This document shows, one piece after another, positions 15,653 through 60,715 of a stretch of DNA of 64,000 nt. Each line of letters begins with the position of its first letter. Within the stretch, counting starts at the first letter, position 1. The notes beneath the pieces are model-generated. The model was not told the DNA's origin. It worked only from the letters and a program-made list of their open reading frames with translations, and did no database searches. The position numbers were made by a program, and so were the translations under genes. Source of the DNA: Marinomonas balearica (GTDB taxonomy: Bacteria; Pseudomonadota; Gammaproteobacteria; Pseudomonadales; Marinomonadaceae); NCBI RefSeq assembly GCF_004362145.1, contig NZ_SNXC01000010.1:1-64000 (forward strand), read 5' to 3'.

Positions 15653-15751
15653 TTTTTGCTCCACAATTGATTTTAAAAAATTTTACGCTTCAAAATAGTT
15701 AATAAACGATTCTATGGATGTTTTTATTATTATGAAAGAAAATGATGACAT

Positions 15752-15785
15752 AAAAAAAACCTCACAATCTTGTGAGGTTTTTTTT
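15752..15785 (-). terminator. Rho-independent terminator of ppsA
   Basis: ACCTCACAA (15759-15767) pairs with TTGTGAGGT (15770-15778), with A8 and T8 flanks on either side giving T tracts on both strands. It lies about 35 bases after the ppsA stop codon on the minus strand. Confidence 0.9.
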
Positions 15786-15818
15786 ATGTACAGTTGTGTC
15801 TTTATCTATGACTTTAGA

Positions 15819-18227
15819 TTAGACGATGTCTTGCTTTTTTGCTGTGTTTGTTTGTGTTTCGCTAAGATGTAGCCAAGTTTCAATCACAGTATCTGGATTC
15901 AATGAAACGCTTTCTATTCCCTGTTCTACTAACCATTCTGCAAAGTCTGCGTGGTCTGATGGGCCTTGACCGCAAATACCGACGTATTTTCCTTTTGCAC
16001 GGCAGGCTTCGATTGCCATTTTTAATAATTTTTTAACGGCAGGGTTTCGCTCGTCAAACTTGTCTGCGATAAGTCCAGAGTCGCGATCTAAGCCCAGTGT
16101 GAGTTGAGTAAGATCGTTCGAGCCAATAGAGAATCCATCGAAATAGTCTAAGAACTCATCAGCAAGTAGTGCGTTTGAAGGCAACTCACACATCATGATT
16201 ATTTTTAAAGCGTTTTCACCGCTAGATAAACCGTGTTCTGTTAACAGATCTGTGACTTGTTTGGCTTCTTCTAGGGTACGTACAAACGGTATCATGATTT
16301 GGACATTGGTTAAGCCCATTTCGTCTCTGACACGTTTTACGGCTTCACACTCTAGGGCGAAACAGTCGCGGAAAGAATCGTCTATATAGCGTGCTGCTCC
16401 TCGAAAACCTAACATTGGGTTTTCTTCATGAGGCTCAAACAATGGACCGCCGATTAAATTGTGGTATTCGTTTGATTTAAAATCTGACAGTCTGACAATG
16501 ACAGGCTTATTTGAAAATGAGCACGCGAGTGTCGCAATGCCTTCGACAAGTTTGTCTACATAGAATTCGACAGGACTCTTATAGCCTGCGATTCTATGAT
16601 CGATTTCCTCTTGAATGCCCGCATCCATCTCAGCGTAGTTAATTAAGGCTTTAGGATGAATGCCGATCATTCTATTGATAATGAACTCTAAGCGCGCTAG
16701 GCCGACGCCTTCGTTAGGCAGCATAGCGAAGTCAAACGCACGATTAGGGTTCCCTACGTTCATCATGACTTTGACTGGCGCATCTGGCATATTGCCGACT
16801 TCGGACGTTACAACATCAAACTCTAAACGGCCTTGGTATACGAACCCCATATCACCCTGAGCGCATGATACAGTGACGCTTTGACCATCTTTTAGAACTT
16901 TTGTCGCGTCACCACAGCCAACCACCGCAGGAATGCCCAACTCACGAGCAATAATCGCTGCGTGACATGTTCGACCGCCACGATTAGTGACAATCGCTGA
17001 TGCACGTTTCATGATGGGTTCCCAATCTGGATCTGTAATATCGGTCACTAAAACATCGCCGTCTTGGATACGGTCCATTTCAGTGATTGAAGATAAAACT
17101 TTTACTTCGCCAGAGCCAATTTTATGGCCGATCGCTCGACCTGTTACGACAACCGGGGCAGATTCTTTTAAGTTGTAGCACTCCATGCTTTGAGCACTGG
17201 TTTGAGAGCGGACCGTTTCTGGACGAGCTTGAACAATGTACAGTTTTCCATCAATGCCGTCTTTCGCCCATTCTATGTCCATTGGGCGCTGGTAATGTTT
17301 TTCAATGATCATTGCCTGATGAGCTAAGGATTCAACTTCTTCATTCGTTAGCGCGAACTGGTTTTGATCTTGTAGCTTAACCGGCACAATTTTGACGAAG
17401 TCATCACTGTCTGGCTCTGCGTATTCCATTTTTTGAGCTTTGCTTCCAAGTGTCTTTCTAACAACCGCAGGACGTTTATTTTCTAACGTTGACTTGTGAA
17501 CATAGTATTCATCAGGATTTACAGTACCTTGTACGACCATTTCACCTAGCCCATATGCAGCGGTAATGAAGACCACTTCATCAAAGCCAGATTCCGTGTC
17601 GAGTGTAAACAGAACTCCTGATGCGCCGATGTCACTGCGTACCATTTTTTGGATCCCTGCTGACAATGCGACTCCTTTATGTTCAAACCCTTGATGTACT
17701 CGGTACGAAATAGCGCGATCATTGTACAAAGACGCAAAGACGCTTTTTATAGAGGCTTTAATCTTATCTAAGCCTTCGACATTGAGGTACGTCTCTTGTT
17801 GCCCTGCGAACGACGCGTCAGGTAAATCCTCAGCTGTGGCTGAAGATCGAACCGCAAAAGAGGCTGCATCGCCTTGCCCGTCACTGAGTACTTTGAACGC
17901 GTTTTCAATTTCGCGATTAAATTCGGCGGAGAAAGGCGCTTCCTCGACCCATGTTCTAATTGTCTCTCCGGCAAGGCTCAAGGCGTTAACGTCGTCTACG
18001 TCAAGAGTATCCAAAAGTGCATGAATTTTGTCGTTTAGTCCGCTTTCTTCCAAGAACGTCTGATATGCATAAGCAGTAGTTGCAAAACCGTTAGGAACTT
18101 GAATTCCAAGGTCTGATAGGTTTGAGATCATTTCTCCGAGCGAAGCGTTTTTACCACCGACTTCACCCACGTCCTCCAGACGTAAATCGCTAAACCACTT
18201 TATAAATTGACTCACATTAGTCTCCAA
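15819..18227 (-). CDS. ppsA: Phosphoenolpyruvate synthase
   Basis: The enzyme has 802 residues and converts pyruvate, ATP and water to phosphoenolpyruvate, AMP and phosphate, the entry to gluconeogenesis from three-carbon sources. The N-terminal ATP-grasp/pyruvate-binding domain ([31 protein letters not shown]) is followed by the swivelling domain with the phospho-histidine H422 in [14 protein letters not shown]. The C-terminal PEP-binding barrel has [17 protein letters not shown] and the catalytic cysteine in [10 protein letters not shown]. The length matches E. coli PpsA (792). It is divergent from the kinase/phosphorylase that controls it. The ORF is intact. Confidence 0.97.
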
Positions 18228-46219: not shown

Positions 46220-47203
46220 TCAATGTGCCATATTCCACTGAGATTTAATCTCGTGTAGTTCTTTAATCAGGCCACTCCAGTATTCTTCGGTTTTATACCA
46301 AGGAAACGCTTTTGGAAAAGCTGGGTCACTCCATCTTTGACCTAGCCATGCAGCATACCTTACTGTTCTTTCAAGTTTAAACACATCAATAAGAGCTAGG
46401 CTGTTTGAATCAAAAGGGTGATGGCTCTCGTACCCTTCTATTAATTCGCTGAGTTGTTGGCGATGGTGTTCTTTTGACGTAAGGTGCAGCCAAATGTCTT
46501 GGCATGGAAAACCAGTCTGGATATCATCGAAATCGAGTAAAACCATGCCTTCATCGGTTTTTAGTAGATTCGATGCATGGCAGTCTCCATGGATAGTCTG
46601 CTGCTGCAATGCACCCGAACGATTTACTGCGCCTTTTGCCAATGTACTAAGTACATCGAACAACTTTATAAACTCGCTGTGTATTGTATTGGGAAGTGCA
46701 CCACGTAATGAGCTTGGATCAAGTAACCATTTCATTTGGAATTCAATGCTTTCAATCAGCGACGGCGATTTTCGTGCGGTTAAAGGCAGGTGCGCGAGAG
46801 CGCTGTGAGTTTCACCAATAAGTTCTCCAATTTGGAACAAATCATCGAGATCTTCAGCTTCTGGCGTGCGGCCTATTACTTTTTCAGTGAGGGAAAACCG
46901 AAAGCCTGAGTGCTTAAACAGAGTTTGATCGTTTAATGCGATAGGTGCAGCGACAGGGACTTGCTTGTTTTTGAGCCAAGATAGAGCGTCGTGTTCTTCT
47001 AGAATTTGTGCGTCGTTCCAACGATCAGGGCGATAGAATTTCACGATGATCGGGGCTTCTTCTTCTATACCCACCTGATAAACTCTGTTTTCGTAGCTAT
47101 TTAGCGGATATATTTGGAAGTTAGTGTATTTGCCTGTTGAGGATTCAACAGCGTCGACAATAACGTCGGGAATAAGCTTAGAAAATGGATGTTCGGAGTG
47201 CAT
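46220..47203 (-). CDS. srkA: Stress-response serine/threonine kinase SrkA (YihE-like)
   Basis: The protein has 327 residues. The choline-kinase-like/RIO fold is shown by VKFYRPDRWNDAQILEEH, IHGDCHASNLL (catalytic loop, HGDxHxxN) and VLLDFDDI (metal motif). E. coli SrkA (YihE) lowers cell death under stress and its N-terminal half, around SYENRVYQVG, matches. It is a single gene. No dsbA downstream in this window. Confidence 0.9.
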   Translation of the reverse strand: MHSEHPFSKLIPDVIVDAVESSTGKYTNFQIYPLNSYENRVYQVGIEEEAPIIVKFYRPDRWNDAQILEEHDALSWLKNKQVPVAAPIALNDQTLFKHSGFRFSLTEKVIGRTPEAEDLDDLFQIGELIGETHSALAHLPLTARKSPSLIESIEFQMKWLLDPSSLRGALPNTIHSEFIKLFDVLSTLAKGAVNRSGALQQQTIHGDCHASNLLKTDEGMVLLDFDDIQTGFPCQDIWLHLTSKEHHRQQLSELIEGYESHHPFDSNSLALIDVFKLERTVRYAAWLGQRWSDPAFPKAFPWYKTEEYWSGLIKELHEIKSQWNMAH

Positions 47204-47327
47204 AGAGTTCCGTTAATTAAGGTAGAAGAACAGAGTGACCCTGTATAGGGAGCATTTTTAATGCAACGAGTCTAGCATGAAAGCGGCAGCCCTTGCAGTC
47301 ACCGCAGAGAAGACCTTTTGTGATTAA

Positions 47328-48608
47328 CTAAAGGTTCAAACGTTTTTTTAATGTGTATTCTTGAGCTTCAGAGAGCGGTGTAGCTAGCCCATCTTCAATT
47401 AATTTACGCCAAATTTTCCATGATTTTATCGCTTCAGCCATATGATTACGCGTGACGTATTGTTGAACTTCAATTCGGAATGAATTGGAGACCGCAGTAG
47501 GGTTTTGTTTTCCAATTATGCGTAATCTCGTAAGGGAACGTTTGAATTTATCATTCAGCTTTTTAACGTCTGAACCTTGTTCAATCATTTGAGTGATGGA
47601 TTGAAGATGGCCGTAGTATAAATCATAGGTTTCTTCGTTGCTGTCTCGTGATAGGCGAATAGCACGCGAAAAGGCATGTTCCGCCATTGGCCAGTCTCTA
47701 TTCTTAACGCTTAGTTCAGCAAGTCGTTTACTTCGCTCAATAGAACGCGGAGACACTTCTAATACCGACTTTAAAATTGATTGGGCTTGTTCATAATTCT
47801 CCATCTTTTCATGTGCGTCGGCTAATGTGTCGTACGCGGAAAGAAAGTGGCGACTTAATGTGATAGTTTGCTCTAAATTTTTGATTGCAGCGACCACAGC
47901 GCCTAACTTAAGTTCGCATTCCGCAATTCCGTAATGTGCCCAGGCGAGGTTTTTGTGTTCTTTTATGACCATCAAATAGTGCGTTTTTGCTTCTTTATAG
48001 CGCTCTTGAGCAAAAAGGGCTTCGCCAATCGATTTAAGGCAGAGATGAGTATATTGAGGGAACTTTTCTTTAATGGCTCTCGCTAATTCAATAACTTTTT
48101 CAAAGTCCTGATCTATTCTGGCTTTGTTAAGTGGCTCAAATATCTTTTTCTGCTGACGTACCTTTCCGAGGCGTCGAATAAACGACTGAGGTGGGAAAGG
48201 TTTAACCAGATAGCTGTCGGGTTGATATTCTAATACACTCACGACAGCTTCATAAGCGGTGTCCGCTGTGATCATGATAAATATTGTAGAGTGGTCTAGA
48301 GAGTAGGTTTTTCGTGTTGTTTCGAGAATTTGCTGGCCGTCTACCGAGCCTCCTAAATTGAAGTCTGATAGTACAATATCGTATTTTATTTCGAGAACAC
48401 GCTTTATCGCAGATTGCCCTGAGGGTTCAATATCGATCTTTTGATATCCCAAACTCGACATAAGAGATTTAAGCATTAGCCTCATTTCACCGAGGTCCTC
48501 AATAATCAGAACTCGCTTATTTAGGATGCTTGTATCAGTCTTACTTTTCTTATTGCCTGTTTCTGGGGAATCTACCGCTTTAAACGTCGGAATATCTACA
48601 TCTACCAC
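47328..48608 (-). CDS. Response regulator with C-terminal TPR repeats
   Basis: The protein has 426 residues. An N-terminal receiver (about 30-155; phospho-acceptor aspartate in IVLSDFNLGG, lysine in LVKPF) is followed by tetratricopeptide repeats (about 185-370; e.g. AWAHYGIAECELKLGAVVAAI). No DNA-binding output is present, as in VieB-like proteins that act by protein contact. Start: a GTG at 48608 sits eight bases after AAGGT; a TTG two codons earlier would be too close to it. The partner kinase is not in this window. Confidence 0.85.
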   Translation of the reverse strand: MVDVDIPTFKAVDSPETGNKKSKTDTSILNKRVLIIEDLGEMRLMLKSLMSSLGYQKIDIEPSGQSAIKRVLEIKYDIVLSDFNLGGSVDGQQILETTRKTYSLDHSTIFIMITADTAYEAVVSVLEYQPDSYLVKPFPPQSFIRRLGKVRQQKKIFEPLNKARIDQDFEKVIELARAIKEKFPQYTHLCLKSIGEALFAQERYKEAKTHYLMVIKEHKNLAWAHYGIAECELKLGAVVAAIKNLEQTITLSRHFLSAYDTLADAHEKMENYEQAQSILKSVLEVSPRSIERSKRLAELSVKNRDWPMAEHAFSRAIRLSRDSNEETYDLYYGHLQSITQMIEQGSDVKKLNDKFKRSLTRLRIIGKQNPTAVSNSFRIEVQQYVTRNHMAEAIKSWKIWRKLIEDGLATPLSEAQEYTLKKRLNL

Positions 48609-48924
48609 AATCAAACACCTTAGTAATGCTGCTCTTGTTTCTTTATAGCACGTCGTTTACTGCTGTCCTAGCGATCTAAAGTGCTAAGTTAATGTTTCAA
48701 AGAGTAATAAAGACAAAAAGGTTTTATAAAACAGCGGTATAGAGTAGAAATTCCAGTGTCATAAAAATGTGTAATAATGTTGTCGTCAGATCTGATATCT
48801 AACTTATTTGTCGGTAAAAGGAGTGAGGTGCACCTGCGTTAATGGAAATCAAAGGGGGAAGGCATAGACCGCAAAATGCTCGTCTGCGGCCTTATTCCTG
48901 ATTGCTCGCGAATAAACCCATTGT
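48609..48924. other. Intergenic region between the PF10014 dioxygenase gene and the receiver-TPR gene
   Basis: 316 bases, with no gene visible. The part near 48864-48893 forms a short hairpin (GGCCGCA with TGCGGTC on the minus strand) after the dioxygenase gene and may be a weak terminator. The rest is AT-rich and must contain the promoter of the receiver-TPR gene. Confidence 0.4.
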
Positions 48925-49590
48925 TTAATATGGCATTGAGTGGGCCGTTAAATTAGCGGTTAGTACAAATACATCCATATACCCTAAATCACCGTCTCTT
49001 GGGCAAATGGCTTTGGCACTGTGAAAAAACTTCTTGTCGTTAAGAATGACAAATTCACCGTGGTCGAATGCGTGACTAATAAAGGCCGGGCTGCTTTCGT
49101 CTAAATGAACATTAATACTCCCACCTTCGATGTTGTGACGTTGAATCACATAGATGCCGATACGATCAAAACCATCCTGATGAATGCCTTCAGGGGCGAC
49201 TTCTACTTTTTGATGATCTGCAAAAATACGTAATTGATGTACTTCTACATGCGTGCCGTACTCGACACCCGACATGTGTTTGAAATGTTCGAACATTTCG
49301 ATAAATTTTGGATCATCGATTACAACGCTTTCGATTTCTTTGTAGCGCCTTACGACATTTCCTTGAAAGTGATTAATGCTTTCATCTTGCACAAAGGGCT
49401 GAGAAGGCAAATGTTCTAAGCAACCTTGAAGGAAACAAAATTGTGAGTAACGTCTTAGTCGATAGGTTCCATCCGCGTATGGATTTTTAGGTAAGCGATC
49501 AAAGGATGGGGCGAGATGGTCGACACACTGTGGTGTCAGTTGACCAAGCTCTAAATAGAACGGTTCTATATGCGAGGTATGGCTTTTCAT
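48925..49590 (-). CDS. 2OG-Fe(II) dioxygenase, PF10014 family (amino-acid hydroxylase-like)
   Basis: The protein has 221 residues. The metal triad is H137-x-D139 in EGIHQDGFDR and H190 in KKFFHSAKAI. The sequence fits the 2OG-Fe_Oxy_2 family that includes bacterial free L-isoleucine hydroxylases (IDO). GAGGAA six bases before the ATG at 49590 fixes the start; an upstream TTG was not used. The gene is alone, so the substrate amino acid cannot be read from context. Confidence 0.85.
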   Translation of the reverse strand: MKSHTSHIEPFYLELGQLTPQCVDHLAPSFDRLPKNPYADGTYRLRRYSQFCFLQGCLEHLPSQPFVQDESINHFQGNVVRRYKEIESVVIDDPKFIEMFEHFKHMSGVEYGTHVEVHQLRIFADHQKVEVAPEGIHQDGFDRIGIYVIQRHNIEGGSINVHLDESSPAFISHAFDHGEFVILNDKKFFHSAKAICPRDGDLGYMDVFVLTANLTAHSMPY

Positions 49591-49772
49591 TATCAATTCC
49601 TCTTTCTAACTGGGTAAGTTACGTTAGGCAAATTCGTTAAAATCTGGAAGAACAGCTTGCTCCTTTTGAGAACAGGCAAGTCTTCGTAAATTGACATTAA
49701 TTTAGATTAACACTCTCAGTTTAGACCTGAAAGTGTCGAAGTGAGAAAAGCAAATGGTTGTAGGGGGTTCTT
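49591..49772. other. Intergenic spacer before the glycogen cluster
   Basis: 182 bases between the dioxygenase gene and glgX. It must contain the dioxygenase promoter (minus strand). No terminator with a T tract was found for glgX. Confidence 0.25.
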
Positions 49773-51800
49773 TTAAGGCAGTTTAACCAAAGCCACGCCG
49801 CGTTGACTAAAGTGTAAACGATCGTTTTGTATGGAAACCCCGGGAGTGTTGAAGAGCAGTTCGCAGGTTGGGCTGCTTTTCGCAAATGGAACGTTCAGCG
49901 CCTGATCTTCACGGTAGAAAATTAACCATAATTGTGTCGAAAGATTTGCTGTCGTGAAGAGAACAGAGATAAAGTCTCGCTCGCTTTCTGCCCAGTTTTC
50001 GTTGGACATTGGCATACCTGTTTCAGAAATCCATTCGACTTTGTCAGAATCTTTGTATTGATATAAAGGGTCGTCTTCTAAGAAAACTTCTGCTAATACT
50101 GGATGAGCTTTGCGTATGTCCAACAGTTTTTTTATTGTGCTTTGAAGTAGTGCTCGTTCTTGGCTAGTATGCCAGCTTAACCAGGTTGTTTGGTTGTCTT
50201 GACAATAGGCGTTGTTGTTCCCGTTTTGCGAATGTGAGAGTTCGTCGCCACCGAGTAAATGAGGAGTCCCTTGACTTAATAGCAGTGTTGCTAAAAAGCA
50301 GAGTTGCTGATTCAGTCTTTGGGATTGTATCCGCTTATCTTTTGTCGGACCTTCGGCTCCAAAATTCTGACTAATGTTATCTCCATGCCCATCTCGGTTA
50401 TTTTCCATATTCGCGTGATTATGACGCCTATGGTAAGAAACTAAGTCATGTAATGTATATCCGTCATGGTAACTGATGTAGTTAACCGAATGCAGGGCGC
50501 ATTTATACCCTTTATGAAAGACATCGCGAGAGCCCATAAAGCGTGTTGCGAATTCGCCTATGATGTCTTCATCGCCTCTCCAGAAGCGACGTACAGTATC
50601 TCGATATTTATCATTGCACTCTAAAAAACCACGAGGAAAGTTGCCGACTTGGTAACCATTCGGGCCAATGTCCCATGGCTCCATAACCAAGCAGGTATCG
50701 CTTAAAATAGGATCTTGCAGTATGGCTTGTAGGAGTGGTGATGTTGCAGAGAATTCGTGGTGCTCACGACCTAAATCCACGCCCAGATCGAACCGGAAGC
50801 CATCTACTCCCATGATTTCAACCCAGTAGCGCATGCTGTCACAGATTAATCGTACCGTGGCTGGATGGTATGTGTTAATACAGTTTCCACAACCTGTATA
50901 GTTAAGGTACTTGCCGTCGCTGTGGCGATAATATCGGGCATTATCAAGGCCGCGAAAACTGAAGGTTGATTGATCCAATTCACTTTCCGCAGTGTGGTTA
51001 TAAACCACGTCAATCAGAACCTCAAAACCTGCTTTCTTTAAGCCTAGAATCATTGTTTGGCATTCTAAAACGGGATCGTTTACTGCGTATCTGTGATCGG
51101 GCGTAAAAAAGTTAATGGGGTTGTAGCCCCAGTAATTTTGCAAACCTAGTTGATGTAGATGTTTTTCAGTCGCAAAAGCGAAACAAGGCATCAGCTGGAT
51201 GGTTGTTATTCCCAGTTCTTTTAGATGAGATATTCCTTGATCAGAGATTACCCCTAAGTAAGTCCCTTTTAATTTTGGCGCGATATCTAGGTTTTTACTA
51301 AACCCTTTAATATGCAGTTCATACAAGCAGCGTTCAGCGCCTTTTACGGATGCTCTTATTAGAGCGTCATTTGGGCGTGATACTGTTCTGACAATCGATT
51401 TGGGAATATGGTGAGCGGTATCAATGGGATTAAAATGCCCATCAGGATACATGGACGATAAGTCAGGGTGCCACTCCAACGTACCGGTTAAAGATTTAGC
51501 ATAAGGATCAATCAACAGTTTATGGCGATTGAACATCAATTGTTTATCAGGAGAAAAAATACCTTCTGCGCGAAAACCGTATCGCTGTCCTTCATGCACG
51601 TTGAGTACTTCCATGTGCCAAATACCGCGATGATGGGATGCGAAGGGAATGACGTGCTCTTCTTCGTCGTTATCGTTGAAAAGGCATAGGTATATTTGAG
51701 TCGCATCTTCAGACGCAACCGCGAAATTAACGCCGTCAGCCGTAACAGTCGCCCCCAGTGGAAACGCGTTACCTGTTCGGACTAAGGGGGCTAACGACAT
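49773..51800 (-). CDS. glgX: Glycogen debranching enzyme (isoamylase type)
   Basis: The protein has 675 residues. A CBM48-type N-terminal domain precedes the GH13 catalytic barrel with region I DVVYNHT, the nucleophile aspartate in GFRFDLGVDL (about 337), the acid glutamate in VMEPWDIG (about 372) and region IV YISYHDGYT. It cleaves alpha-1,6 branches, usually of phosphorylase-limit glycogen. ATG 51800 has GGAG six bases upstream, while ATG 51812 has none. It is the last gene of a minus-strand cluster with glgB. Confidence 0.94.
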   Translation of the reverse strand: MSLAPLVRTGNAFPLGATVTADGVNFAVASEDATQIYLCLFNDNDEEEHVIPFASHHRGIWHMEVLNVHEGQRYGFRAEGIFSPDKQLMFNRHKLLIDPYAKSLTGTLEWHPDLSSMYPDGHFNPIDTAHHIPKSIVRTVSRPNDALIRASVKGAERCLYELHIKGFSKNLDIAPKLKGTYLGVISDQGISHLKELGITTIQLMPCFAFATEKHLHQLGLQNYWGYNPINFFTPDHRYAVNDPVLECQTMILGLKKAGFEVLIDVVYNHTAESELDQSTFSFRGLDNARYYRHSDGKYLNYTGCGNCINTYHPATVRLICDSMRYWVEIMGVDGFRFDLGVDLGREHHEFSATSPLLQAILQDPILSDTCLVMEPWDIGPNGYQVGNFPRGFLECNDKYRDTVRRFWRGDEDIIGEFATRFMGSRDVFHKGYKCALHSVNYISYHDGYTLHDLVSYHRRHNHANMENNRDGHGDNISQNFGAEGPTKDKRIQSQRLNQQLCFLATLLLSQGTPHLLGGDELSHSQNGNNNAYCQDNQTTWLSWHTSQERALLQSTIKKLLDIRKAHPVLAEVFLEDDPLYQYKDSDKVEWISETGMPMSNENWAESERDFISVLFTTANLSTQLWLIFYREDQALNVPFAKSSPTCELLFNTPGVSIQNDRLHFSQRGVALVKLP

Positions 51801-51828
51801 AACTTTCTCCATTTAACGTATTGAATGC

Positions 51829-51856
51829 AACCTCGCAGTTTTAATACCACGAGGTT
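51829..51856 (-). other. Intercistronic hairpin between glgB and glgX
   Basis: AACCTCG (51829-51835) pairs with CGAGGTT (51850-51856) in the 80-base gap of the cluster. No T tract follows on the minus strand, so it may modulate processing or partial termination. Confidence 0.35.
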
Positions 51857-51880
51857 GGCGTTCTTCTTTCAAAACCTAAT

Positions 51881-54049
51881 TTATGCTTTCCATTTATAGA
51901 TCACAGTGGATAAAGGAGGAATCTCCATTATTACACTGTTATTTCGCCCATGACTTTCAATGTGCTCAGCTTTAAGTACTTTTGGAAGCGGGAACCCACT
52001 GCCACAGTACATTGTGTCGTCTGTATTTAAAACGAGTTCGTACTGACCTTCTTTGGGAGCTCCGATTCGATATCCGCTATGAGGCGTAGGAGTGAAATTG
52101 ACGACAACCATCACCAATTCGTCTCTTTGTTTCGATTGTCTGACGTACGCGAGAATTGAATTCTGGCCATCATCATAAGACAACCACTCGAACCCTTGGT
52201 GATCGTGGTCAATTTGCAATGCTTGTTCGGCGGAATAAAAGTGGTTAAGGTCTTTGACAAGCGTCTGTAAGCCTTTGTGGTAATCAATATCGAGCAAATG
52301 CCAATCAAGTGATTTTGTATGGCTCCACTCTTGACCTTGACCGAATTCACATCCCATGAAGTTCAGTTTCTTACCTGGATGGGTGAACATATAGCCATTA
52401 AAAGCTCGAAGATTGGCGAATTTCTGCCAGCCATCTCCAGGCATTTTTTCAATCATAGAGCCTTTGCCGTGTACGACTTCATCGTGTGAAATAGGCAACA
52501 TGAATTGCTCGTTAAAGGCGTAAACCATAGAGAACGTGAGCTCTCCTTGATGATACTGCCGATAAATAGGGTCTTTCTTCATATACTCTAACGTATCGTT
52601 CATCCAGCCCATATTCCATTTGAACCCAAAGCCTAAACCATCCATGTATGTCGGCTTAGAGACGCCTGGATAAGCTGTAGACTCTTCTGCAACGGTGAAG
52701 CAACGAGGGTGGTTCAAGTAAACAGTTTCATTGAGTTTTTTCAAAAACGCGATGGCTTCATAATTATGATTTCCTCCATCAACGTTTGGAATCCATTCTC
52801 CGTCTTCGCGGGAATAATCTAGATATAGCATTGAGGCAACCGCATCTACGCGCAAGCCATCGATGTGATATTCCTCTAGCCAAAAATTAGCGTTACTAAT
52901 AAGAAAATCAACAACGTGTTCTTTACCAAAGTCGTAGATCAAGGAGTTCCATTCTGGGTGCCAGCCTTTTTTAGGGTCTTCGTATTCGTACTGGTGTGTG
53001 CCATCAAAATTAGCAAGACCATGACTGTCGGATGGGAAGTGTGCTGGAACCCAATCCATAATGACACCGATACCTGCCTGATGAAATGCGTCAATAAGTG
53101 CCTTAAATTCGTCAGGTGTTCCATATCGAGAAGTGACGGAAAATAGGCCAACAGGTTGGTACCCCCATGAACCATCAAATGGATATTCCGAGACGGGAAG
53201 CAATTCGACGTGTGTGTATCCCATTTCGGTAACATACTGTACGAGGTGTTCTTTTAGCTCAAGATACGTCAGTGGTTCGTTGTGGTCTTTTCGTCTCCAT
53301 GAGCCTAAGTGCACTTCATAAATGCTTACCGCTTCTTCGTATATATCGGTAATCGGTCGAGACATCCAATTGTTGTCATTCCATTCATACTGCGATTCTT
53401 GAACGACACTTGCAAACGAAGGGAATTGTTCAATGCGTTTGGCGAATGGGTCGGTTCGGTGGGGTAACACTTCGCCAGACTTTGCTCTGATTTCAAATTT
53501 GTATTTAGCGCCATCTCTGACGTCTGGAAGAAAGAGGCGCCAGACTCCGTCGCCATTACTGGACATCGGATGAATACGGCCATCCCAACCATTAAAATCA
53601 CCTACAACATAAACGGAACGAGCCGCAGGTGCATAAACCGCAAAACGCGTTCCATCGATGGCCAATGAATCGCTCACAGGCGCACTTTGGAATAGAGCTC
53701 CTTCTTTTTGATATAGCGTGGCTTTATGGTGTTTAGGGTCGGAGAAGGTTGCTTCGTTAAACTGATATGGATCGACTATGGTCGCTGTATTACCGTCTGA
53801 ATACGTAATTTTTAGACGGTAATGAAAATGCTCTTTTTTATCGCTCCATTGGCATGTAAAGAGCCCATTGTATCCGTGAGGTGACATTTCCCCTAGTACG
53901 GTATCTTCATCGATTGCTAGCACGTCGATCGCGACTGCGTCGGGGCGCCAAACTTTTAGAGTTAAATCCTTTTCATCAATCCAGTGTAGGCCAAGGAATC
54001 CGAAAGGGTCGGAACAGCGGGCATTTACAATGTCTTCAAACAGATCCAT
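51881..54049 (-). CDS. glgB: 1,4-alpha-glucan branching enzyme
   Basis: The protein has 722 residues (E. coli 728). N-terminal CBM48 domains precede the GH13 barrel with region I DWVPAHFPSD, nucleophile D402 in LRVDAVAS, acid E455 in AEESTAYP and LPISHDEVVHGKGS as region IV. It cuts alpha-1,4 chains and re-attaches them as alpha-1,6 branches. It lies between glgX and the phosphorylase-kinase-like gene, same strand. No glgA, glgC or glgP is present in the window. Confidence 0.96.
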   Translation of the reverse strand: MDLFEDIVNARCSDPFGFLGLHWIDEKDLTLKVWRPDAVAIDVLAIDEDTVLGEMSPHGYNGLFTCQWSDKKEHFHYRLKITYSDGNTATIVDPYQFNEATFSDPKHHKATLYQKEGALFQSAPVSDSLAIDGTRFAVYAPAARSVYVVGDFNGWDGRIHPMSSNGDGVWRLFLPDVRDGAKYKFEIRAKSGEVLPHRTDPFAKRIEQFPSFASVVQESQYEWNDNNWMSRPITDIYEEAVSIYEVHLGSWRRKDHNEPLTYLELKEHLVQYVTEMGYTHVELLPVSEYPFDGSWGYQPVGLFSVTSRYGTPDEFKALIDAFHQAGIGVIMDWVPAHFPSDSHGLANFDGTHQYEYEDPKKGWHPEWNSLIYDFGKEHVVDFLISNANFWLEEYHIDGLRVDAVASMLYLDYSREDGEWIPNVDGGNHNYEAIAFLKKLNETVYLNHPRCFTVAEESTAYPGVSKPTYMDGLGFGFKWNMGWMNDTLEYMKKDPIYRQYHQGELTFSMVYAFNEQFMLPISHDEVVHGKGSMIEKMPGDGWQKFANLRAFNGYMFTHPGKKLNFMGCEFGQGQEWSHTKSLDWHLLDIDYHKGLQTLVKDLNHFYSAEQALQIDHDHQGFEWLSYDDGQNSILAYVRQSKQRDELVMVVVNFTPTPHSGYRIGAPKEGQYELVLNTDDTMYCGSGFPLPKVLKAEHIESHGRNNSVIMEIPPLSTVIYKWKA

Positions 54050-54122
54050 TTACTTCTCCAACCTGAGAATTATTATTAGATTTATCGTATATAACGAAAG
54101 TGACTAACAGAGTTTAGTTGCT

Positions 54123-57100
54123 TTACGCTTGGTGCTGTAGGCTATGCTGTTTGCTTACTGCCCAACGAAGGTATTGTCCTACCTTATTTGGGGTGAGTTG
54201 AGCAAATTCGTCCAGTGCGATTTCTTCTGTGTTTTTCTCTGGGTGCTCTTGTTTTACTTGTTTCGCTCGGTCGTGTGCTGCGAGTGAAACAAGTACAGGT
54301 AAATTTACCTCATTTAACAGGATATTACCTTTGTGTTGTTCGCTGAATTGAATAAAAGCATACAGAGCTTCAAATATAAGGCTCTTATACCAACTTGGGT
54401 GAATATCAGATGTCAAAGATTCGACAAGTAGCGCAAACGTGTCTTCTCCTGGTGTCATAGAGCTTAGTGTGCGTTTACAGTCTAATGTTGTATTACTTTG
54501 GGTATCACCAAAGACAATATATTGCGCATTACTAAGAGAATCCCACAGTTGTGACAGCATGTCTTCCGGTAATTTCGTTATTAGCCCTTGTTCCGTTCGC
54601 CAATCGAACCAGTCTACGTCCTTCATTTGAGCGTCTGTGCTGTTTGCGCTTTGATTGTATCTAAGGTTTGTTGCAACGTGAGTAAAGTCTTCATGTTTTT
54701 GGATCAGTACCGCTTTAAGAGCTTGATATAGTGAATACGGTGTTGCTCCAGCCAATATGTCGATAGAAGGGCGAGTGTCGTTAGGGTCGAGTTGACGAGC
54801 ACACAGTAGCGCCAAACTGTGAATTCTGATCGTACGGACACCATCAAAATACTCTGGGTGAATTTTGATGAGTGCGCCTGCAATAGATATAATTTCGTGA
54901 TGTAAAACCATCGTCAGACTTGAGGATGACGCTTGACGAATGATCTCTAAAATTTCTTTTTGATGAAGAGGTGAGGAGATATGGGTTTCATTTTCCTGAG
55001 AATCTCCTAACACTAAAACCCGCTGACGTACTGTTATATCGGCAATATACGTCGCTAAATCGGTCGACGGTTTGATCATCAAAGAGAATAGACGTCTGAC
55101 AGAACACCAATCTTCGTGTAATAACGCCTCAACATACACAGAATCCATTACTTTGTAAGCGGTAATGGCGGGAGTCGAATTAGGAATAGTATTCATCAAA
55201 GCACGACGATGGCCTAACTCTATAAGCGTTTCGATGGCTAATGGTAACGGAGGGTTGTCCATCAATTTTGACAAAAGTGTATCGGTATCCAGCCCACTTA
55301 GATCGCTGCAATCAAGCTCTGTAATAGACCTGTCAATGGGCCAAGGTTTTTCATCAACAACAAATCTCGCTCCCAATTGGCGATCATTTGTTGGTTTGAT
55401 TGTCATTGAGCGTCTAGAACCGGATTTAAACGCATTTTTTGCCGACTGAGGAGTGATATGAAACTCTTCAGATTCGTGATTTTGCAATTGACGAATAAAG
55501 TCTAATAATTCGGAGCTGTTTGGCATTTCAACCATCGCTTCATCAACCAGTACGGTAAATACCGCATTGGCAGGGTAATACCAATGAGAGTCGATGATTT
55601 TTAGCTCATTTCTAATGTGCTCTTTAAACAGAGTTGGATCGGTTTTTGTATAGTCTTTATCTTCGTTTTGAATCCAAGAAAGGCACAAGTAATTTTGATC
55701 GTTGATTGTAAACGGCTGCGACGTCGCTAAGCTGTTCAATGCACGAGAAGGGCGGCCGGTAAGCTCCAAACTATCGGAAGCGCCAAGGTAATGATAAAGC
55801 TCGATCAATTGCTCGGAACTGATTACTCGAAGGGGGGCAATTTCATCAATAGTTTGGCACAAGCAGCCTGCTTCAATCAGTTGTTCTTTTACTTTTTCGC
55901 TTTTCGCAAGTACAACCATTGAGGTTGAGACGGACTTTCGATTATGTTGAACTTTATGTAAGCCAAGTGGATCAAGATCATCGGTTGTTATAAGTTCTTC
56001 ATCAATCATCTTGCCAACCAAATAGAGGCTTTGCGCCCACACTAATGGCAGGTTATCGTTTGGTACTCGTTCTTGAGATCCCGGGTTGTCTTTTTCTGCA
56101 AGAATTTTGTCTTCAGGTACATAATAAAGCTCCGGAAGCAGTCGCTCTCCGTCTCTTTCAACCATCAGCTCTTCTAGTTTATAACGATAAAAATTGGCAC
56201 TTTCCCAGTCTCTGGCAAACAATCTGTCTAAATAGAGGTAGGTGTAAAACAGTGGCCATTCAGACTCTATGTGCTCAAAGTTAATGAGCTCATCGTATTC
56301 ATAATAAATTCGACTGTGGTCTTCTAATACCGTTTGGTGTCCATCGAGTAGAAAGCGTTTGCACCCGTATTTTCCACCCAATTTATCTAATATTTCTTTA
56401 CGCGTCTTTTTGGTAAGTTTTTCGTCATTTACCGCAAACGCTGGGAAGCTAATAATGCTGAGTAGAGCGCCATCGACTTCTTTCGACCGAGACTCTTTTG
56501 GTAACAATGATTGTAGAACCGACCCTGCACGAGCAACCGCATCTGCAAAAGAATGGATAACGGCCCATTCTGGGCCGTCTTCTCCGAATAGATTCAGTCC
56601 ATCAAGGGCTTCCATTGCAGCTTTTGCCATTCCGACTGAGCTTGCGTTGATTTCCGCTTTGCCGTTATTAACTTTGTTGCCTCGCTCCCAGATGCCGTAA
56701 TCTGGCGTACGGTATGTTCGGGAAATGTAATAGACAAGGTTTTGAATAAAGTTTAATTCTTCTTGGTTGTATATTAACTTACTGCCTGCCTTGGTCATTT
56801 GCGCAAGCGTCAGCAAATAAAAGCTGGTGGCGTCGATCTGAAGGTGTCCCCAAGCGTCGTCGGCAACGACTTCTAACCCAGTTTTAGTATCGTATTTTGC
56901 GTGTAACGAATCGATTGGGTCTAAGCTGTGTTTAAACGCCTCCACTTTTGGAGACTGGCGCATCATCGCAAACAGCAATCCACGCATCATTTTAATGCAT
57001 GTGTATTCGAGTTCGTGCGCTCGTTTATCAGGGTTAGAGGCTCTTTTATAGGCCAAGTACAAAGCCCAAACTGCTTGAATGCTGTAAACATTATCTCGAA

Positions 57101-57242
57101 CCCAAGCGTCGGTGTAGTCTCCGTGTTTATTGACACTGGTACTAGCAGGAAACAGCCCTGTTACAGGGTGTTGACGAGATAAAATGACATTTTTTATGTG
57201 ATGATATAGAGAATCAAGCTTGCTCTGAGTATCTGACGCCAT
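54123..57242 (-). CDS. Phosphorylase kinase alpha/beta-like GH15-fold protein
   Basis: The protein has 1039 residues. Residues about 20-430 form a GH15-like alpha/alpha barrel and match, from memory, the eukaryotic phosphorylase kinase alpha subunit closely: GDYTDAWVRDNVYSI, MRGLLFAMMRQ, DSLHAKYDTKTG, WGHLQIDATSFYLL, YGIWERGNK, and NASSVGMAKAAMEALD. The rest (about 450-1039) is helical without clear motifs. It is 73 bases from glgB. Eukaryotic alpha/beta subunits regulate the kinase and bind calmodulin. Here no kinase subunit is near. Possible roles: a glucan-binding or glucoamylase-like enzyme, or a regulator of glycogen metabolism. Confidence 0.8.
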   Translation of the reverse strand: MASDTQSKLDSLYHHIKNVILSRQHPVTGLFPASTSVNKHGDYTDAWVRDNVYSIQAVWALYLAYKRASNPDKRAHELEYTCIKMMRGLLFAMMRQSPKVEAFKHSLDPIDSLHAKYDTKTGLEVVADDAWGHLQIDATSFYLLTLAQMTKAGSKLIYNQEELNFIQNLVYYISRTYRTPDYGIWERGNKVNNGKAEINASSVGMAKAAMEALDGLNLFGEDGPEWAVIHSFADAVARAGSVLQSLLPKESRSKEVDGALLSIISFPAFAVNDEKLTKKTRKEILDKLGGKYGCKRFLLDGHQTVLEDHSRIYYEYDELINFEHIESEWPLFYTYLYLDRLFARDWESANFYRYKLEELMVERDGERLLPELYYVPEDKILAEKDNPGSQERVPNDNLPLVWAQSLYLVGKMIDEELITTDDLDPLGLHKVQHNRKSVSTSMVVLAKSEKVKEQLIEAGCLCQTIDEIAPLRVISSEQLIELYHYLGASDSLELTGRPSRALNSLATSQPFTINDQNYLCLSWIQNEDKDYTKTDPTLFKEHIRNELKIIDSHWYYPANAVFTVLVDEAMVEMPNSSELLDFIRQLQNHESEEFHITPQSAKNAFKSGSRRSMTIKPTNDRQLGARFVVDEKPWPIDRSITELDCSDLSGLDTDTLLSKLMDNPPLPLAIETLIELGHRRALMNTIPNSTPAITAYKVMDSVYVEALLHEDWCSVRRLFSLMIKPSTDLATYIADITVRQRVLVLGDSQENETHISSPLHQKEILEIIRQASSSSLTMVLHHEIISIAGALIKIHPEYFDGVRTIRIHSLALLCARQLDPNDTRPSIDILAGATPYSLYQALKAVLIQKHEDFTHVATNLRYNQSANSTDAQMKDVDWFDWRTEQGLITKLPEDMLSQLWDSLSNAQYIVFGDTQSNTTLDCKRTLSSMTPGEDTFALLVESLTSDIHPSWYKSLIFEALYAFIQFSEQHKGNILLNEVNLPVLVSLAAHDRAKQVKQEHPEKNTEEIALDEFAQLTPNKVGQYLRWAVSKQHSLQHQA

Positions 57243-57643
57243 TAAATGATCCCTTAATTACAAGTTGCGAATTCTGATAGTCGTTTATATTAAATTAACG
57301 CTGAAGTGTTAAGTCCCTATGAAATCGCGACTGTCCATTCATTAAAAATTTAGGTAAGCACCGAATTGTATGTAATTTAGTCTGTATTAATCGGTCTGCA
57401 ATAATCGCGCCTTAAAAGCCTAGATTTTTATGAGATTTAAATCAAACGCTTCCTTTCTTTAGATCCACTTAAATTTAGCAGATTTTCGCTTTTTACGCAC
57501 AGGTACGTGGATTCTCTTCAGATAATGGTTTTTTTCAGTATGATTTTTCGACTGAAAACGCGGCGAAATTAGTCCAAGAGCGCCTTAGTTCCAGTCAAAA
57601 AATCCACAATAATTCTACTTCGGGTGAGTCATTTCAGCGGGAA
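57243..57643. other. Region upstream of the glycogen cluster
   Basis: 401 AT-rich bases with the minus-strand promoter of the cluster and the end of the chemoreceptor gene at 57644. A hairpin TTTTCAGT/ACTGAAAA (57532-57539 with 57551-57558) is present but no T tract follows on either strand. No gene, repeat or riboswitch found. Confidence 0.4.
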
Positions 57644-59194
57644 TTAAGTTTGATAGGTTTCGACGACTTTCCTTAGTTCTTGTGCACATTCCCCAATTCG
57701 TGTGACGGATGCTTCTATAGCTACCGAATTTTGCTGAGTTTGGTCGCAGACTTCTCCGATGTTTTCCAGTACCGTGTTGACGTTACTTGAAATATGGTAT
57801 TGGTTGTCTGAGCCCGTTTTGATTTCGGCGTTTAGTTTTGAAATCGTCAACATACCTTGTGCGATATCATTAAACGCAGACTCCGCTTCGGACATTTGTA
57901 ATGCTCCTGCATTTGCCGTACCTTGCGCTTTTTCCATGATTTCAACGGTATTAAAGGTTTGAGTCGTTAGTTGATCAATTAAACTTCCGATTTCACCTGC
58001 CGCCTGTTGGGATTGCTGAGCAAGTTGTCTTACTTCGTCTGCAACCACGGCAAACCCTCGACCTTGTTCTCCTGCTCGTGCCGCTTCAATGGCTGCATTT
58101 AAAGCGAGAAGGTTGGTCTTATCTGCAACTTCTGAAACAATTCCGAGACGGTTGTTAATGTGTTTTACATCTTCTCTTAATTGCTGAAACTGCATCGCAG
58201 CTTCGCCCACTTCTAAAGAAAGGTTTTGCATATCTGCATTGGCTTTATTCATAGTGTGAAGGCCACCTTTGGAATGCTCTCCTAGACTGTTTGCGGAGAG
58301 GTTCGCTTCGTCAGCAACGTTCAATATTTGGTCGACTGAACTCATCACCTCAGCCATTGAGCGAATTGCGTCTTTTGTGTTCATTTGCTGAGTGTTTACG
58401 CCCTGTGTCGTTGCTAATATGGCCTTATTAGTTTCAGCGATTACGTCATTTAGAGATTTACTTGCGTCCCCAATTTGTTGAACGATGACACCAAAGCTTG
58501 AAACCATATGGTTAAACGCATCAGCCATTTCTCCCATTTCGTCGTTTCCATCAAAGCGGACGCGCTGGGTAAGGTCTCCTGACTGTTTTACGGAGCGCAT
58601 TGTGTCACAAAGGGTTGTTATTCTAATCGTAACAAGACTAATGATCGTTAGTGCTGCGCCACCGATTACGATCGTCAGTATTGCTACAAGGATGCCGAAA
58701 TCGACTAATGCACTCTTAAATTCACTGTAAACAACGTCCATATTGGAAACGGCGATGAGAGAATATTTCTTTGACAGGGATAGGTTATCCAGAGGGGTTG
58801 ATGCGAGAAGAAGGGTTATTGATGATTGGTTATTGGATGAAGGGATCTCGACAATGCTTGGATTGTCTGTGAAATCTATTGATTTCAGTGATGCTTTCCC
58901 AATCCACGGCGGTGTGTAAAGTGCATTTTTATTTTTGTCGATTAAAACGTACGCCGATAGTGGCGACGTTGCTAAGGCGTCGATTTCTTTAATCAACTCG
59001 CGTTCATTTTTAGATGAAAGGTTAGACGCTGCTGTATCGACCATCATCTGAGTTTGTCTTAACAATCCATTAAGGTTGGTTTGATAAAGTGAATACAGTG
59101 AAACGAATATTAGAGCGCCAGTCCCAATAGACATAAGGCCGATGATTGCCCATAGCTTGTATTTGATTTTGACATTGTTTACACGGTTGATCAT
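57644..59194 (-). CDS. Methyl-accepting chemotaxis protein
   Basis: The receptor has 516 residues. Membrane helices at about 12-34 and 166-190 flank a periplasmic sensor of about 130 residues that is not recognisable as Cache or four-helix. HAMP and a long coiled coil follow, with the tip [20 protein letters not shown] and ADEVRQLA. The ATG at 59194 was chosen because AGAGGAAG lies just before it and the first membrane helix then falls at a normal distance; a start at 59272 would add 26 residues that look non-coding. It is a single gene. Confidence 0.92.
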
Positions 59195-59461
59195 ATAGCT
59201 TCCTCTCACAGTGTTCCCCATTCTACGAGGAGTTGTTATGTATAAGAAATGTAAAAAATTGATCTGAGTCAAAGGAGCTGACGTTAGCCATTAAACAAAT
59301 TAAGACGCACGGTTTAACCGCAATTGAGGTGCGAAGCGTTGAATATATTTAAATTACGTAATAAAGTTGAAAGTTATATATGTTTTAGTAAGTTGTTTTG
59401 TACTATAAATTATGTCTATCTGTTGGCAACGAGTTGATGACATTCATTTCGCACAGGGTTA
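59195..59461. other. Divergent control region, nothing specific recognised
   Basis: 267 bases between the chemoreceptor (minus) and PAP2 phosphatase (plus) genes, AT-rich, carrying promoters for both. Confidence 0.3.
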
Positions 59462-60214
59462 ATGAGAAAATTAAAGATGTTTAAGTCTTGGAAGTACGGT
59501 GTCGCTCCTGCAGGTTTTATTTTCTGCGCTGTATTGTTTTCGGTATGGCCTGAGATTGATTTGTATGTGAGTGGCTTATTTTACGATGCTGGAACGAGTC
59601 GATTCCCTGCAAACGATAACGCTATAGTTAAATTTGTCTATTGGCTTTTCAAGGAAATGCCAGCGGTCATTGTTCCTGTTTTGCTTGGTTTGTGTGTCAT
59701 GACATTGTTCAAGTCGGGCCCTGAGTGGAATAAAATACACAAAAGAAAATGGTATTTTATGCTCGCTTTTTTGTTGATTGGCCCCGGTATTATTGTGCAC
59801 ACTGGCTTTAAAGATAATTGGGATCGTGCGCGCCCTCGTCATGTTGTTGAATTTGGCGGAGCTCAACAATTTACTCCTGCGCTCGTAGTCAGTGACCAAT
59901 GTGAGAGAAATTGCTCGTTCGTCAGCGGTCATGCCGCGATGGGATTTGCATTTATTGCTCTTGGCTGGGTTTTGCAAAGCCGTCTTTGGTTGTTCTTCGG
60001 GCTTGGGTTAGGGTTGTTTGTCGGAGGAATTCGAGTCCTTCAAGGTGGACACTTTTTAAGTGATATTATATTCAGCGGATTTATTTGCTACGCCAGTGCA
60101 TGGGTCATGGCGAAGTGGATATTGGAACCTTCACAGAGCAAATTGCAAAAGCAAGACACTCAACAATACGTCAAATTAAGCGAAGACCCATCTTCCAAAA
60201 CAAACCACTCCTGA
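59462..60214 (+). CDS. PAP2-superfamily membrane phosphatase
   Basis: The protein has 250 residues with about six membrane helices. The three PAP2 signature motifs are visible: KDNWDRARPRH, VSGHAAMG and GGIRVLQGGHFLSD (catalytic His). Likely substrates are phosphatidic acid, lipid A or undecaprenyl pyrophosphate. It may form a unit with the following YqaA-like and SPOR-type genes on the same strand. Confidence 0.88.
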   Translation: MRKLKMFKSWKYGVAPAGFIFCAVLFSVWPEIDLYVSGLFYDAGTSRFPANDNAIVKFVYWLFKEMPAVIVPVLLGLCVMTLFKSGPEWNKIHKRKWYFMLAFLLIGPGIIVHTGFKDNWDRARPRHVVEFGGAQQFTPALVVSDQCERNCSFVSGHAAMGFAFIALGWVLQSRLWLFFGLGLGLFVGGIRVLQGGHFLSDIIFSGFICYASAWVMAKWILEPSQSKLQKQDTQQYVKLSEDPSSKTNHS

Positions 60215-60289
60215 TCATTCTTTCTAAAATGTTGTATGGTGAGCAATCTGTCGATTGTTCTCAATACAACGTTTTGATGCGCATGCCTT

Positions 60290-60715
60290 GTGTTTGATTT
60301 AATCTCTCTGTTTTTCTCGTCATTTCTTTCTGCAACCGTTTTTCCGGGCAGCTCCGAGGCGTTGATAATCTACTTATCCGCCACTGCTGAGCATTCATTG
60401 ATTTTGCTATGGGGTGTTGCAAGCCTTGGTAATACATTGGGGGGCGTAACAAACTGGGTGTTAGGTCGGTATTTGTTTCATTTTAGAGATCATAAGTACT
60501 TCCCTGTGTCCGTTTCGCAATTGGAAAAGGCCAGTGCATTTTTTTCGACGTACGGAAAATGGACTCTTTTGTTGAGTTGGCTTCCCGTTATCGGTGACGC
60601 CTTGTGTTTGTTTGCTGGTGTTTCAAAAATTCGGCTTTTCACTTTCTTTGTTCTTGTTTTGTTTGGTAAATCGCTTCGATATGCCATACTCTTAATTGGA
60701 ATTGAATATATCTGA
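60290..60715 (+). CDS. YqaA-family membrane protein (DedA/SNARE-associated type)
   Basis: The protein has 141 residues and four predicted helices. SSFLSATVFPGSSEALI, LGNTLGGVTNWVLGRYL, and WLPVIGDALCLFAGVSKIRL match YqaA. DedA-family relatives maintain membrane integrity and lipid flipping. The start is a GTG at 60290 with no clear ribosome site. It lies 75 bases after the PAP2 phosphatase gene. Confidence 0.8.
   Translation: MFDLISLFFSSFLSATVFPGSSEALIIYLSATAEHSLILLWGVASLGNTLGGVTNWVLGRYLFHFRDHKYFPVSVSQLEKASAFFSTYGKWTLLLSWLPVIGDALCLFAGVSKIRLFTFFVLVLFGKSLRYAILLIGIEYI

Follow-up and report, generated by a model that had tools for sequence, protein, structure and literature searches.

A Marinomonas balearica protein on the plan of phosphorylase kinase alpha and beta carries a predicted glucoamylase-type active site and is encoded beside glgB and glgX

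The 64,000-nucleotide stretch of Marinomonas balearica DNA analysed here (contig NZ_SNXC01000010.1, positions 1 to 64,000; the window) encodes at 54123..57242, on the minus strand, a 1039-residue protein that is a member of the phosphorylase kinase (PhK) alpha/beta family by descent, with the five-domain fold of that family along its whole chain. PhK itself is a textbook example of a regulated kinase. We lean, if not strongly, towards reading the bacterial protein as an alpha-glucan glucohydrolase of the GH15 type, cytosolic and catalytically competent, which follows the PhK plan and would feed glucokinase, and in which domains D2-D5 would serve assembly and probably ADP sensing. If this is true, an exo-acting step of glycogen breakdown would be named for bacteria with GlgA, GlgB, GlgC and GlgX in which no GlgP was found. 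The physiological meaning of the glucoamylase-like domains of PhK has been said to need further investigation (PMC10978961), and a bacterial relative with an intact predicted active site and no phosphorylase match makes the function of these domains testable. Judged by titles and the beginnings of abstracts, no study of bacterial PhK-like proteins was found among the literature matches listed, and the available portions of PMC11046441 and PMC6282683 hold nothing bearing on such proteins.

The initial annotation had noted a resemblance to PhK alpha/beta in many consecutive motifs, and this was borne out over the whole length by phmmer, by profile and by structure-model comparison. The open reading frame starts with ATG and all the motifs quoted earlier occur in its translation, but the 'HGDY' preceding TDAWVRDN falls in a 6-residue gap of human PHKA1 and is not alpha-like. 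A phmmer search of the PDB returned the human PhK subunits alpha (E 2.5e-162, with residues 5-587 as the best stretch) and beta (E 6e-141, residues 7-991), and since the sole further match listed is a ribosomal protein at E 0.64, chance is excluded as the source of this similarity. Pfam recognizes GH15 (PF00723, E 2.1e-69, 234.9 bits against a cut-off of 22) and, at residues 830-1029, the PhK C-terminal domain KPBB_C (PF19292, E 5e-24, 85.2 bits against a cut-off of 27). A family profile built from 56 bacterial sequences (the window protein and 55 of 78 loci) scores PHKA1 at 1023 bits and PHKB at 856 bits, the only other match listed having an E-value of 0.32.

The AlphaFold model of the window protein (pLDDT 84.2, pTM 0.84) superposes on PhK alpha over residues 1-1039 (Z 52.1, root-mean-square deviation (rmsd) 3.4, 948 residues aligned) and on PhK beta (Z 44.3, rmsd 3.7, 987 aligned), so that human PHKA1 (8jfk, 8z5r) and PHKB (8z5t, 8jfl) both share its full-length fold. 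The top six rows of the fold comparison are all PhK alpha/beta, with 933-987 residues aligned, and are followed by GH15 enzymes matching over D1 (Z at most 30, about 340 aligned); the list is a re-examination of Foldseek's own matches, and structures outside it are not thereby excluded. The C-terminal half, previously described as unexplained, therefore corresponds to D2-D5 of PhK. With approximate borders, D1, the GH15-type (alpha/alpha)6 domain defined by PF00723, the fold alignment and identity to PHKA1, covers residues 8-430 (55953..57221, minus strand, like all positions given for this gene), D2 covers residues 431-612 by homology to PHKA/PHKB (55407..55952), and a helical D3-D4 region covers residues 651-874 by profile, model and fold comparison (54621..55292). 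D5, residues 875-1039 (54126..54620), is equivalent to PHKA 1051-1217 (8xyb_A, Z 19.7, rmsd 2.4, 159 residues).

Conservation within the bacterial family is by far strongest in D1: 101 of its 423 positions are invariant across 91 sequences, against only 2 of 182 in D2. In this domain the window protein is 54.2% identical to human PHKA1 and 45.6% to PHKB; seen from PHKA1, the protein of the cyanobacterium Aliterella (locus L073) is 65% identical, compared with 54% for the window protein and 47.7% for PHKB, the paralogue of PHKA1. Among 29 GH15 loci, 12 hold an open reading frame matching the family profile, whereas in the other 17 no frame of at least 300 amino acids matches it at E 1e-3, which sets the PhK-like proteins well apart as a branch of GH15; a PDB search with one ordinary 613-residue GH15 protein gave no match at E 1e-5. 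The GH15 glucohydrolases compared, namely Kribbella isomaltose glucohydrolase (5z3a), Thermoanaerobacterium thermosaccharolyticum glucoamylase (1lf6) and Aspergillus glucoamylase (1dog/6frv), share the (alpha/alpha)6 domain, but only about 340-350 of the 1039 residues align, at 14-18% identity, their rows have no counterpart of D2-D5, and in several of them the residue after the base is Gln (PMC12446779). A firm position among catalytic glucoamylases, with an active glutamate pair and confirmed activity, had been named as what would refute the regulator reading; the pair is indeed present, but the protein lies far from ordinary GH15 enzymes.

The active site was read from an alignment of 91 bacterial sequences (the 78 loci, the window protein and the 12 GH15 loci that match the profile). 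Tyr43, Trp47, Arg49, Asp50, Trp185, Glu186 and Glu371 are each found in 91 of 91, and Tyr, Trp, Arg, Asp and both Glu recur in 12 of 12 ordinary GH15 proteins, the catalytic residues being common to the two groups by profile alignment. Glu186 (56685..56687) and Glu371 (56130..56132) stand at the general acid and general base positions, matching Glu185 and Glu371 of PHKA1, whose roles are given in PMC10978961. Tyr43 (57114..57116) aligns with the GH15 tyrosine that hydrogen-bonds the catalytic base, as Tyr48 does in Kribbella isomaltose glucohydrolase (KfIG; PMC12446779), and Arg49-Asp50 (57093..57098) is the conserved GH15 pair. In an hhalign comparison whose alignment begins at this DY, DYTDAWVRDN is matched to DYYYDWVRDA from the ordinary GH15 set (probability 86.8, E 4.3e-6). 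On sequence, the window protein thus has the general acid and base, the base-holding tyrosine and the Arg-Asp pair of a GH15 member. PHKA1 keeps both Glu and lacks the tyrosine, its gap lying in the Tyr43 region, and PHKB is without Tyr43, Trp47, Arg49 and the base Glu371, which is Lys there; among the positions of residues 8-610 that 90 or more of the 91 bacterial sequences share, 13 are lost from PHKA1 and 40 from PHKB. Both human subunits look disabled, each in its own way, and this may explain why glucoamylase activity was not detected in human PhK, as reported in PMC10978961.

The M. balearica genome (99.99% complete) yields no match to the glycogen phosphorylase family PF00343 and no candidates for it; the same search matches in 12 of 14 control genomes. 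Synechococcus elongatus, one of the controls, matches GH15 and KPBB_C as well as the phosphorylase family. It has GlgA, GlgB, GlgC, GlgX and a glucokinase, the last encoded next to zwf, and the PhK-like gene is its sole match to PF00723 and its sole match to PF19292. Of 48 other genomes that carry the PhK-like gene, 10 likewise lack a PF00343 match; these belong to M. pollencensis, Marinomonas MED121, three Gilvimarinus, Saccharospirillum MSK14-1 and four metagenome-assembled genomes, absence from these four being weak evidence.

The glycogen connection proposed earlier from the neighbouring genes is supported. In the window, glgB (1,4-alpha-glucan branching enzyme, 722 amino acids, 51881..54049; NF003811, 938.8 bits, cut-off 741) lies 73 bp downstream of the PhK-like gene and glgX (glycogen debranching enzyme, 679 amino acids, 49773..51812; TIGR02100, 755.7 bits, cut-off 640.9) another 68 bp on, all three on the minus strand and both neighbours above their NCBIfam equivalog cut-offs, so that the PhK-like gene is likely the first of an operon with glgB and glgX. 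We compared 36 Marinomonas-type loci (35 and the window; Maribrevibacterium included) with 43 other loci. At all 36, the PhK-like gene is followed on its own strand, at a spacing of 0-124 bp, by a member of the glgB/glgX cluster as recognized by BLAST against the genes of the window. At the other 43, glucokinase stands next to the PhK-like gene or is separated from it by a single gene in 20, a set that tblastn reproduces: immediately downstream in 16, with a spacing of -4 to 24 bp in 13 of these, immediately upstream in one and two genes upstream in three. All seven glucokinase genes examined in NCBIfam (L048, L049, L050, L057, L060, L067 and L079) pass TIGR00749. A second gammaproteobacterial draw of 15 loci has glucokinase in eight, six of them directly downstream on the same strand; the exceptions are L150, a partial match at a contig end, and L157, where it lies upstream in the opposite orientation (the script left the PhK-like gene unlabelled in L148 and L156, both among the 15). 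No glucokinase was seen at the 17 other GH15 loci, a weaker control in that their flanks reach at most 1.5 kb around the match. Some loci also have Entner-Doudoroff or MalQ genes: NCBIfam identifies Eda together with MalQ in L048, and Zwf, Pgl and Edd in L049; others are MalQ in L050 and L052 by Pfam, and by BLAST clustering Eda in seven loci and Zwf, Pgl and Edd in five each. The glucokinase in 20 of the 43 loci fits the release of free glucose. In cyanobacterial L134, glgA lies two genes from the PhK-like gene.

For the catalysis, substrate, ADP control and oligomer of the window protein we infer the following scheme. Together with GlgX it would trim glycogen or maltodextrin from non-reducing ends and release free glucose, the partner being GlgX in Marinomonas and MalQ in Saccharospirillaceae, and the glucose would enter the Entner-Doudoroff route through glucokinase. 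In the window's organism the hydrolase would stand in for the glycogen phosphorylase not found there. D2-D5 would have a part in assembly and, probably, in sensing the energy state through ADP or a similar nucleotide held at the D1/D2/D4 seam, a signal that would suit an energy-short cell. The window protein would then be the counterpart of an ancestor whose copies turned into PhK scaffolds.

The nucleotide part of this scheme comes from PHKB, in which Arg211, Tyr213, Arg214 and Arg274 surround the ADP diphosphate (PMC10978961). By alignment, Arg175-Thr-Tyr177-Arg178 of the window protein (56709..56720) matches the first three and Arg238 (56529..56531) the fourth; all four side chains are thus present, as in PHKB, where PHKA1 has Ala, Tyr, Lys and His. 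The complete set occurs in 54 of the 91 sequences, including 36 of 36 of the Marinomonas type and the four cyanobacteria of the 78-locus set. The ADP site as a constant of the family was rejected on these counts. As background, D1 has 238 positions at which 75% or more of the bacterial sequences agree, of which PHKA1 keeps 184 and PHKB 149, so that the presence of four out of four in beta is suggestive only. ADP control of the window protein is plausible, and weaker than the hydrolase reading.

A more far-reaching version, which we put forward only tentatively, is that of an ADP-gated glycogen glucohydrolase, a single chain uniting the catalytic site lost from human alpha and beta with the ADP site found in beta alone. 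On this view, duplication of a glycogen-cutting enzyme of bacteria (of cyanobacterial type), with loss of catalysis and reuse as a kinase scaffold, would have given rise to PhK, and the activation of human PhK by ADP would be an inherited bacterial energy sensor. In a draw of 370 genomes from the class of the window, 16 have KPBB_C, as do 49 of 194 genomes of the cyanobacterial phylum (48 above cut-off). In a D1 tree of 68 of 93 rows, from which 25 Marinomonas rows were omitted, both human chains fall together with four cyanobacteria (98/95); the window protein falls in a starred set of 11 Marinomonas and Maribrevibacterium rows. The human PHKB placement is unsafe, with an end branch of 2.55, long branches meeting and odd composition, and the tree was therefore rebuilt without it (45 rows); PHKA1 still groups with cyanobacteria (97/96). 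As the eukaryotic sequences are human only and the root of the tree is unknown, a cyanobacterial-type source of PhK alpha/beta is a lead to follow. Two further features of these data deserve mention. L103 (G146) and L104 (G137) are listed under the window's class, yet their PhK-like proteins sit inside the Campylobacterota group (100/99), by transfer or contamination. The cyanobacterium G607 has two KPBB_C places on different contigs (L115 on C20 and L123 on C57), a possible bacterial duplication resembling alpha/beta.

Several observations weigh against the hydrolase reading. PHKA1 has both Glu, yet glucoamylase activity was not detected in human PhK (PMC10978961). Leu comes directly after the base in all 91 bacterial sequences, a position occupied by Glu in 8 and by Gln in 4 of the 12 ordinary GH15 proteins, and by a Gln that helps to hold the base in the characterised inverting enzymes named in PMC12446779; the same source cautions against inferring mechanism from a conserved Glu pair alone. 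The catalytic loop 183-195 has pLDDT below 50 in the AlphaFold model, leaving the predicted geometry uncertain. PF00343 is matched in 38 of the 48 carrier genomes, 21 strongly and 17 weakly, and in the class draw it is matched in 14 of 16 KPBB_C carriers against 227 of 370 genomes overall; we accordingly rejected phosphorylase replacement as a family-wide role, the ten genomes without and the 38 with a match meaning that the protein can work without phosphorylase and is no general replacement for it. Among the 16 cases in which glucokinase comes directly after the PhK-like gene, 13 are from Campylobacterota and thus not independent; 23 of the 43 non-Marinomonas loci have no glucokinase nearby, and it is near none of 24 cyanobacterial loci (0 of 20 and 0 of 4). 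The full ADP set, finally, is found in only 18 of the 55 sequences outside the Marinomonas type. As a separate matter, loop 183-195 hardly varies in sequence although it has the lowest AlphaFold confidence, and it is perhaps ordered by a ligand or partner subunit only. In two Campylobacterota loci, L065 and L071, the gene order is small alpha-glucan phosphorylase, PGK, PhK-like gene and glucokinase, with pgm also in L071 (whose phosphorylase and PGK are identified through cluster alone), so that phosphorolytic and hydrolytic routes lie side by side.

Some of these points would suit a protein without catalysis that binds glucan and nucleotide and acts on GlgB/GlgX as regulator or scaffold, a reading close to the 'regulator without a kinase' first suggested, which we regard as rather unlikely. 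The inactivity of human PhK despite the Glu pair of alpha (PMC10978961), the invariant Leu, the tight order with glgB-glgX and the retention of the large D2-D5 across the entire bacterial family speak for it. Against it stand the invariance of the catalytic set, including the Tyr that PHKA1 lost, the conservation of D1 far above the other domains, and glucokinase and Entner-Doudoroff neighbours that suit glucose as product. The suggestion fared better in its second half: no PF00069 kinase was found in nine open reading frames scanned at 46220-60715 of the window, and the gamma-docking residues are not kept.

An active GH15 enzyme of other specificity, a transglucosylase, isomaltose (alpha-1,6) hydrolase or trehalase, appears slightly less likely still. 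GH15 includes all these activities (PMC12446779), the best GH15 fold rows are those of Kribbella isomaltose glucohydrolase (Z about 30), and the residue after the base is unusual; however, the recurring neighbours (glgB/glgX, malQ, glucokinase) are alpha-1,4-glucan and glucose genes. The archaeal trehalase TreH1 (NF041084) gives a weak, partial match at residues 128-297, and trehalase identity was rejected on its score, 32.9 bits against a cut-off of 820.

That the protein is a PhK subunit in the strict sense, regulating a Ser/Thr kinase of the bacterium through which glycogen enzymes are controlled, is very improbable: its homology to PhK alpha/beta, five PF00069 places in its own genome and a Ser/Thr kinase gene after the Aliterella gene are outweighed by the lack of a PF00343 match there, and hence of the PhK substrate in the same cell, by Gln585 and Glu590 in place of PHKA1 Lys588 and Tyr593, which are said to dock gamma (PMC10978961) and are variable across the 91 sequences, by a C-terminus, AVSKQHSLQHQA, without the CaaX farnesylation motif where PHKA1 is farnesylated, and by the neighbours of the gene in other cyanobacteria. 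The Aliterella kinase (PF00069; L073:11437-12789, plus strand) directly follows the PhK-like gene, and kinase-like genes lie near it in cyanobacterial L133 and L136 too, with no pattern; a conserved Ser/Thr kinase neighbour was rejected, since in none of 20 further loci from cyanobacteria is a kinase like that of L073 the immediate neighbour, and no Ser/Thr kinase gene was seen recurring in that place in the loci examined. A histidine kinase gene (HisKA, HATPase_c) directly follows the PhK-like gene in L063 (11516-12880, plus strand); a BLAST relative does so in L128 and lies two genes off in L054 and L123.

The closest relatives of the window protein among named genomes are Marinomonas proteins (74-75% identity). 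A hydropathy scan peaks at 1.47 over 19 residues, with no membrane or export signal standing out. The promoter and terminator scan of 49500-57700 gave 11 and 6 sites, below the shuffle means of 16.9 and 7.6. In L048, a DUF4032/Kdo-kinase-like protein (14647-15885, plus strand) is encoded after malQ and a MalK/UgpC gene, and its cluster occurs in four Saccharospirillaceae loci. Further along the minus strand of the window, a 2OG-Fe dioxygenase gene (PF10014, without NCBIfam match; 48925-49596) directly follows glgX and has cluster members in nine Marinomonas-type loci, and about 2.6 kb past glgX lies a kinase gene (46220-47203) matching NF008738 (346.5 bits, cut-off 194), which we take to be of the SrkA/YihE type; its cluster is found in 16 loci and in L040 adjoins the PhK-like gene on the opposite strand. 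Between these two, 47328-48614 encodes a response-regulator receiver fused to TPR repeats, with cluster members in 19 Marinomonas-type loci.

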